Source: an uncultured Desulfosporosinus sp.
GTDB taxonomy: Bacteria > Bacillota > Desulfitobacteriia > Desulfitobacteriales > Desulfitobacteriaceae
Assembly: GCA_927405585.1 (NCBI GenBank)
Contig: CAKMJS010000113.1
Span: forward strand, 1 to 35,044
Length of the DNA stretch: 35,044 nucleotides
Reading direction: 5' to 3'
Part shown: positions 5,179 through 6,797 of the stretch, piece by piece
How positions within the stretch are numbered: position 1 is the first letter of the stretch
How the letters are laid out: each line of letters opens with the position of its first letter
Position numbers and translations under genes: made by a program
Notes under the pieces: model-generated
Database searches by the model: none
The model's input: only the letters and a program-made list of their open reading frames with translations
What the model was told of the DNA's origin: nothing

Positions 5179-5931
5179 ATGGAGCGATTGCTAAGCCTAG
5201 CTGAAAGAATTAGAGAAGTAATCAATGACCAAACTGAACATGCCGATACGATTACCCAATACCGTAAACCACTTGTCAGATTCGCTTCCGCCCAAGACCC
5301 GTTGTTTGATCAAATGAAGGAAATTATTGGTCCCCATCATATGCACCCTACTGAACTTCTCGCGGATGCTCAAACGGTGATATCCTTTTTCTTGCCCTTT
5401 GCTAAGACTATCGTTACTGCCAATCGCGAAAGTCCCCAAATCGCTCGCGAATGGGCTGTCGCTTATCTCGAAACAAATACCCTTATCGCAACCATTAGTG
5501 CTGAACTCAAACGAGAATTAACATCGCTTGGCATCAATGTAGTGACTCAACCAGCTACTCACAATTTTAATGAACAAGATCTAACGGCGCGTTGGTCTAA
5601 TAAAAGCGTAGGTTTTGTAGCTGGGTTGGGCACCTTCGGTATTAACCATATGCTAATAACTCCCTCTGGCTGCGCGGGTCGTTTTGGTAGTACGGTCATT
5701 TCTGCTGTAATTCCACCCACTCCCCGACCTACACAAGAGAACTGCCTCTATATTCGAGATTCTAAATGTCAATTTTGTGTCAATAATTGTCCCACAGGAG
5801 CCTTGACGCTCCAAGGTCTGGACAAACATCTATGTTATGCTCATTTGCTTGAAATAGACAAACAATTTCCTGACTTAGGGTTATGTGATATTTGCGGCAA
5901 ATGTGCCGTTGGACCCTGCGCTTCAATTTGA
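5179..5931 (+). CDS. QueG-like (epoxyqueuosine reductase family) Fe-S protein
   Basis: The 250-residue protein resembles the family that includes epoxyqueuosine reductase QueG. Its middle contains GFVAGLGTFGINHMLITPSGCAGRFGS, the family's cofactor-domain segment. The C-terminal part binds Fe-S clusters: CQFCVNNCPTGAL (Cys197, 200, 204) and CDICGKCAVGPC (Cys236, 239, 242, 247). It is shorter than QueG proper (about 380 residues) and lacks its C-terminal repeats, so a true queuosine role is doubtful; it may be a related corrinoid or Fe-S reductase. It is a single gene. The ATG at 5179 has GGAG only two bases before it; a TTG nine residues-worth of bases downstream of that motif (5188) is an alternative start. 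Confidence 0.72.
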   Translation: MERLLSLAERIREVINDQTEHADTITQYRKPLVRFASAQDPLFDQMKEIIGPHHMHPTELLADAQTVISFFLPFAKTIVTANRESPQIAREWAVAYLETNTLIATISAELKRELTSLGINVVTQPATHNFNEQDLTARWSNKSVGFVAGLGTFGINHMLITPSGCAGRFGSTVISAVIPPTPRPTQENCLYIRDSKCQFCVNNCPTGALTLQGLDKHLCYAHLLEIDKQFPDLGLCDICGKCAVGPCASI

Positions 5932-5988
5932 AACGTTAAGTGTGCTCTAAGTGAATGCCTCTCTATCCCTTAAAACAATAAACAAAAT

Positions 5989-6012
5989 AAAACCCGCACA
6001 TTAGCGGGTTTT
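5989..6012. terminator. Intrinsic terminator, best on minus strand
   Basis: AAAACCCGC (5989-5997) and GCGGGTTTT (6004-6012) form a perfect 9-bp stem with loop ACATTA. On the minus strand the stem is followed by TTTTATTTTG, giving a proper terminator for the candidate RNA. It can also serve the rightward QueG-like gene. Confidence 0.85.
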
Positions 6013-6494
6013 ATATAAGAGCACGCAATGATCTTACCTAGCACCAATACTGATCCCTTATCACCTAACCATGATCTTTCGACCATAGTCAAGCAAATCA
6101 CAACCAATATTAATGGTTCGTTCGACCTTGAAAGATATCTACACAGCTACATACAACCTTTCGGCTGTATATAACCGACTTTCTTACACATGCATACATC
6201 TACCGACATATGGTTGAGTAAGAAAAACTCAACACCCAACAAAATCTTAGCTCGACCCGTTATGATAAGTTGGAACCTCAAAAACAATCGAAATAGACTG
6301 CATTAAAGCTTTTCCTAACCATAAAAGATCTTCCCGCCGACTATATACAAGCGTTTTAACACCTGCCAATAATCTTTGGCCGACCCATATACACCCGGTA
6401 ATGAGCATATATAAATCTTGGCTCAACCATTACATACCCTTATGATCGTATTATTACCTTTCGTTGCTTATTATATCCTGGTAATTTAAACCAT

Positions 6495-6551
6495 CTTTCG
6501 GAAGCTTTCGTTCCGAAGTCTCGATGTTCAACTTTAGTTGAACGAGTTCAC
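6495..6551 (-). repeat. Dispersed hairpin repeat, copy 2 (5' part of the candidate RNA)
   Basis: Read on the minus strand it gives GTGAACTCGTTCAACTAAAG then TTGAACATCGAG and CTTCGGAAC-GAAA-G-CTTCCGAAAG. Hairpin 1 matches copy 1 almost base for base. Hairpin 2 has different stem bases but still pairs, so structure is kept while sequence drifts. Confidence 0.6.
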
Positions 6552-6718
6552 TATACCGTAAACCGAATTATATTTCTGATAATAGTATCTTCCTATTATC
6601 GTCAAATGTTTTTTGTATTTTACAAAACCATTACACGAGGGTAAACTTGATATTAGATAATTGAATATTCAAATAATAATTCACTAAACTTATTCATCCA
6701 AAGAAAGGAGGATTTTAT

Positions 6719-6796
6719 ATGAAAACTTTGAAATCTTCTTGGAAGTTTTTAGTTTACTTTGGTTCATGGTTTTGGCAAAACGATGAACAAGCTTAA
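6719..6796 (+). CDS. 25-residue micropeptide / possible leader peptide
   Basis: An ATG at 6719 follows the excellent ribosome site AAAGAAAGGAGG with an 8-base spacer and opens a 25-codon frame ending TAA at 6796. The product starts MKTLKSSWKFLVYFGSWFWQ and ends NDEQA. It has a basic start, an aromatic hydrophobic centre with three Trp, and an acidic end. It has no cysteine. A perfect terminator begins two bases after the stop codon. The unit stands alone between the candidate RNA and sufC. It may be a small membrane peptide, or a leader peptide whose translation affects read-through into sufCB. I do not recognise the family. Translation itself is inferred from the ribosome site. Confidence 0.55.
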   Translation: MKTLKSSWKFLVYFGSWFWQNDEQA

Positions 6797-6797
6797 T

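Follow-up and report, generated by a model that had tools for sequence, protein, structure and literature searches.

A large structured RNA gene of Bacillota with a putative forespore promoter

On the minus strand of a contig from an uncultured Desulfosporosinus sp., positions 5985..6442 encode a noncoding RNA of about 455 nt that belongs to a class previously undescribed and without an Rfam family (positions are those of the window, by which we mean the whole 35,044-nucleotide stretch analysed). The reading that we favour, with moderate confidence, is that of a stand-alone gene which is transcribed in the forespore and whose product would serve in trans as a ribonucleoprotein scaffold. The RNA was recognised from its folding, its homologues and their covariation. 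An earlier note on this DNA had proposed that the minus strand encodes a large structured noncoding RNA and, having no family it could name, had thought of a new class; both suggestions are strongly supported, the first by homologues far outside Desulfosporosinus in which all helices covary, and the second by the lack of any Rfam match.

As minus-strand RNA the intergenic stretch folds to -219 kcal/mol, compared with -143 +/- 6 for its shuffles (z = -12.7), whereas the plus strand reaches a z of only -3.2, in agreement with the claim that it folds on one strand only. The stretch is also gene-free, as had been stated, since no credible gene was found in it and its sole open reading frame is a spurious one of 59 aa. 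In contrast, the unit of about 575 nt originally proposed proved too long: conservation begins near 6480, and the 5' end of the RNA is placed near 6442 because the conserved promoter described below sets the start there. The 3' end is given by an intrinsic terminator hairpin followed by a T tract (5984..6012, minus strand), which bears out the strong terminator predicted at 5989-6012, and terminator-like sites were found downstream of 105 of 206 homologues as against 7 in shuffles. A TATAAT string does occur at 6572-6567 but is not conserved, and we rejected a promoter at that place, as upstream homology stops short of 6572 and the adjacent 6513-6552 is a dispersed repeat. The third GAAA hairpin of the original proposal (6495-6518), beside the dispersed repeat, is likewise not conserved. 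The repeat itself, AGTGAACTCGTTCAACTAAAGTTGAACATCGAGACTTCGG, is a REP-like palindromic element of about 40 nt that is found in the window at 6513-6552 and 424-463 and in at least 40 places in the genome, often with a second hairpin after it.

An order-level alignment of 38 sequences (A2) yielded a consensus structure of 132 pairs, in which the conserved core (6016..6442) forms a six-way junction made of a closing stem, P1, and five arms, P2 to P6, all on the minus strand. P1 pairs 6442-6425 with 6033-6016. Arm 1 (6379..6422) consists of helix P2, with two-sided changes in 8 of its 18 pairs and mutual-information z-scores of up to 29, and arm 2 (6339..6374) consists of helix P3, which is closed one loop further out by the covarying pair 6379-6334 (z 17.7, 100% Watson-Crick or G-U); this pair at the base of P3 supersedes the pair 6422-6379, which was the last of P2 in the order-level model. 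Arm 3 (6254..6330) contains helices P4a and P4b, defined by the helix table and mutual information, arm 4 (6124..6246) contains P5a, a variable P5b and P5c, defined by the consensus structure and covariation, and arm 5 (6042..6115) contains P6a and P6b, defined by covariation and mutual information. Across homologues P5c carries a GNRA and P6b a GNAA tetraloop. These two helices (P5c, 6178-6163/6158-6143; P6b, 6095-6081/6076-6062) are the long GAAA-capped hairpins that the earlier note had placed at 6144-6177 and 6061-6096, and they are indeed rich in G-U pairs and covary throughout the phylum. The 7-bp stem that it saw near 6212-6232 falls in the variable part of P5, which is missing from some genera (L058, L061, L062).

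Homologues with covarying helices had been named beforehand as the test of the proposal, and they were found. In the order-level alignment 57 pairs showed compensatory two-sided change, compared with 27.5 +/- 3 in shuffled and 20-29 in slid controls, and 96.2% of cells could pair. Similarly, in a phylum-wide alignment of the 3' part (A3), two-sided change was seen in 36 of 46 pairs and in 930 cells against 281 +/- 24, with several G-U wobbles near-invariant. Compensatory changes thus stood above phylogenetic noise in both alignments, as is expected of a structured noncoding RNA, and the strongest mutual-information signals among 233 sequences fell in P1-P6.

The arms are also related to each other. 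A covariance model of arm 5 matched arm 3 of the window's own RNA at 25.2 bits (E 2.6e-5, a rough value, like all those from the shortened calibration), and such a match within the same molecule recurred in many species; the RNA therefore contains an internal duplication, with P4 and P6 as internal repeats. A junction motif, GUCGAGCNAAGRU, recognised by its recurrence and clearest at 6244..6256 (minus strand), is repeated in most molecules, with related strands before each arm. The recurring junctions and repeated arms may provide several similar sites where one protein binds or RNA-RNA assembly takes place. By this anatomy, and by analogy, the function is probably that of a ribonucleoprotein scaffold, which, with less certainty, would act in trans in the forespore. 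An alternative is a self-assembling, homo-oligomeric particle of RNA formed in the forespore, as GOLLD, ROOL and OLE form homo-oligomers (PMC12286853). The similar size, multi-arm junction, internal pseudo-symmetry and conserved GNRA tetraloops all speak for such a particle, but raiA, another large RNA, was a monomer in the same study (PMC12286853), and we consider the particle unlikely, although worth bearing in mind. A bolder form of the scaffold reading, in which a widespread RNA class is dedicated to the forespore and a pseudo-repeated, multi-arm RNA builds a ribonucleoprotein or RNA-only particle in developing endospores of Clostridia-like Bacillota, is put forward tentatively, at somewhat less than even confidence.

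The RNA is common in the genus and widespread beyond it. Within the genus, DNA searches recovered it from 29 of 30 genomes, frequently in two copies and with up to five matches per genome, and at family level from 37 of 46. R1, a covariance model that spans the 3' 161 positions, detected it in 48 of 74 genomes of the order and 55 of 398 of the phylum, and R2, a further model for which 93 sequences from across the phylum were used, in 160 of the 398 genomes and 114 of 266 genera of this phylum sample, the members of which are not phylogenetically independent. R2 gave no hit in six genomes from other phyla that had matched the pattern by chance (0/6), as against 6/6 Bacillota genomes searched alongside. 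Nearly all of the divergent loci examined in profile searches were colinear, essentially full-length homologues, and carriers among the matches listed included Desulfosporosinus, Pelotomaculum, Desulfofundulus, Carboxydocella, Caloramator, Caldicoprobacter, Fervidicola and Clostridium aestuarii. Paired nearby copies (L237, L249, L227) were seen about 0.5 kb apart in Sporotomaculum, 5 kb apart in Caloramator sp. mosi_1 and 2 kb apart in a Pelotomaculum.

An unsupervised EM fit to 207 non-redundant upstream sequences revealed a conserved element, GNATA-(14-15 bp)-GGNYANAMTA, which scores above 8 bits in 195 of the 207 homologues and in most of them is separated from P1 by 7-10 nt. In the window it comprises GGATA at 6474..6478 as the putative -35 element and, 15 bp downstream, GGTAATAATA at 6449..6458 as the putative -10 element, found de novo, both on the minus strand. 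A matrix built without the window's genus gave the RNAs of that genus a median of 11.9 bits compared with 1.5 for 203 ordinary gene starts, and the promoter of the window scored 13.9 bits where the 99th percentile of control genes was 10.65. Promoters of sigma-F and sigma-G have a GYATA-like -35 and a GGNNANAHTR-like -10 element with a spacing of about 15 bp. Judged by its sequence, the upstream element matches this sporulation type, having both elements about 15 bp apart. In C. difficile sigma-F and sigma-G promoters are alike, and a conserved G upstream of the -10 element marks those of sigma-F (PMC3789822); the element found here carries this G (0.82, followed by a G at 0.73; about 80%). 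The spoIIR promoters of the genus have, in part of the genomes, a related GYTTA-15-GGRCANACTR, but with the RNA-trained matrix the genus's promoters of spoIIR and SASP genes were recognised only in part. Based on the promoter sequence, we infer that RNA polymerase with sigma-F, perhaps also with sigma-G, would transcribe the RNA in the forespore from P1 as far as the terminator.

The distribution of the RNA is consistent with forespore transcription. The spore marker SpoIVA was present in 155 of the 160 RNA-bearing genomes as opposed to 181 of the 238 others (Fisher p 2e-9, with phylogeny ignored), and many sporulators in the phylum are without the RNA; the cross tables for SpoIVA and OLE were compiled by reading the hit lists of the phylum sample. 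These data also bear on a rather unlikely alternative, an OLE-like RNA with a housekeeping or stress role in vegetative cells and a sigma-A promoter, whose -10 element would be the GNATA block. This block does allow the reading TGTATAAT, and OLE was also detected in 142 of the 160 RNA-bearing genomes (283 of the 398 overall). However, in this putative -10 element the last T is weak (0.54) and G.ATA strong, the block has no TTGACA upstream of it, and the second block, GGNYANAMTA, follows at a fixed 14-15 bp and ends just before P1. Moreover, the RNA is nearly confined to genomes with SpoIVA, whereas OLE is also found in several that lack it. We set the co-occurrence with OLE aside as a sign of shared function: the two are associated, but 18 genomes, that of the window included, have the RNA without OLE. 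OLE was detected in the genomes of two other members of the genus but not in that of the window (G000), which may reflect either loss or an assembly gap.

The comparison with Rfam that had been recommended, with OLE, ROOL, GOLLD and HEARO in mind, gave no match at gathering score (Rfam 15) in the window or in 36 further homologous loci, and no credible one in the window with E raised to 10. A trans-acting ribozyme or metabolite-binding RNA might be suspected from the highly conserved junctions and internal loops and the near-invariant G-U wobbles, which suggest a precise tertiary core, but there was no ribozyme or riboswitch match in Rfam and no associated gene, and we regard such an activity as improbable. 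Conservation of the neighbouring genes stops at the genus; between genera they are unrelated and their orientation differs as well, and no conserved neighbour across genera offered a functional clue. Because the neighbours differ between genera and Rfam holds no match, we consider the RNA to be a stand-alone class. In two genomes (L085, that is G015:C40, and G025:C213) the sigma-F-type sporulation gene spoIIR closely follows the RNA gene on the same strand, an adjacency that we treated as coincidence. Those two cases and the occurrence of up to five matches in a genome could point to a cis-acting leader or part of a mobile element, but this is most improbable, given that neighbours and orientation vary between genera while positions are conserved within a genus, that half of the copies have a terminator-like site of their own, and that neither 50,697 phage records nor the plasmid records contained a match. 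A single pattern match among IMG/VR viral contigs (L297) was not confirmed by R1.

Two other features of the plus strand of the window were recorded. A tiny ORF at 6720-6797, MKTLKSSWKFLVYFGSWFWQNDEQA, has a strong ribosome-binding site and is directly followed by a hairpin and T run; it had no NCBIfam match and was absent from the other loci compared. A QueG-like protein encoded at 5179-5931 scored 35.8 bits against a QueG cut-off of 200 and is probably a paralogue.

Few large structured bacterial RNAs are known that lack an assigned function, and all of them have been taken up in structural and genetic work. The stand-alone RNA described here was seen in about two-fifths of the genera sampled in the phylum, has no Rfam family, and represents a cryo-EM target supported by covariation. 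The putative promoter gives a directly testable cue to the place and time of action, namely the forespore, and if this is true, a large RNA would join the endospore programme, which so far has been described almost wholly in terms of proteins.

We found no published description of the RNA in the open-access literature on large or new structured RNAs, to which the search was confined. Sporulation-specific noncoding RNAs have precedents in csfG and Bvs196, the former a sporulation sRNA of Bacillus. Bvs196, with 294 nt, is a sporulation-specific noncoding RNA of Bacillus as well (PMC9147052); both differ in being shorter and were described from Bacillus. The raiA motif, or ModT RNA, is another conserved structured RNA of Bacillota, the disruption of which in another species is reported to affect sporulation and aggregation (PNAS 2024; PMC11706538), but it has about 205 nt and a different fold, and the new RNA has no Rfam match. 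The smtA motif (Soda Lake RNA) resembles ours as a large orphan structured RNA of >350 nt; reported only from Thioalkalivibrio (PMC11109978), it was rejected as a different RNA. HEARO was similarly rejected, as there was no Rfam match and the neighbours scanned were unrelated metabolic genes and not an IsrB-type endonuclease. With ROOL and GOLLD, which were described from phages and prophages (PMC12286853), the RNA shares its size class, multi-arm fold and GNRA loops, but in contrast to them it is absent from the phage and plasmid records searched, and identity with either was rejected for lack of a model match in the window and the 36 loci. Identity with OLE (RF01071) was rejected on the same two sets, that in the window at E up to 10. 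Like OLE, the new RNA is large, stand-alone and highly structured and occurs in anaerobic or extremophilic Bacillota, often in the same genomes, but it has no sequence or structure match to OLE at gathering score and differs from it in its forespore-type promoter and its near-confinement to genomes with SpoIVA.
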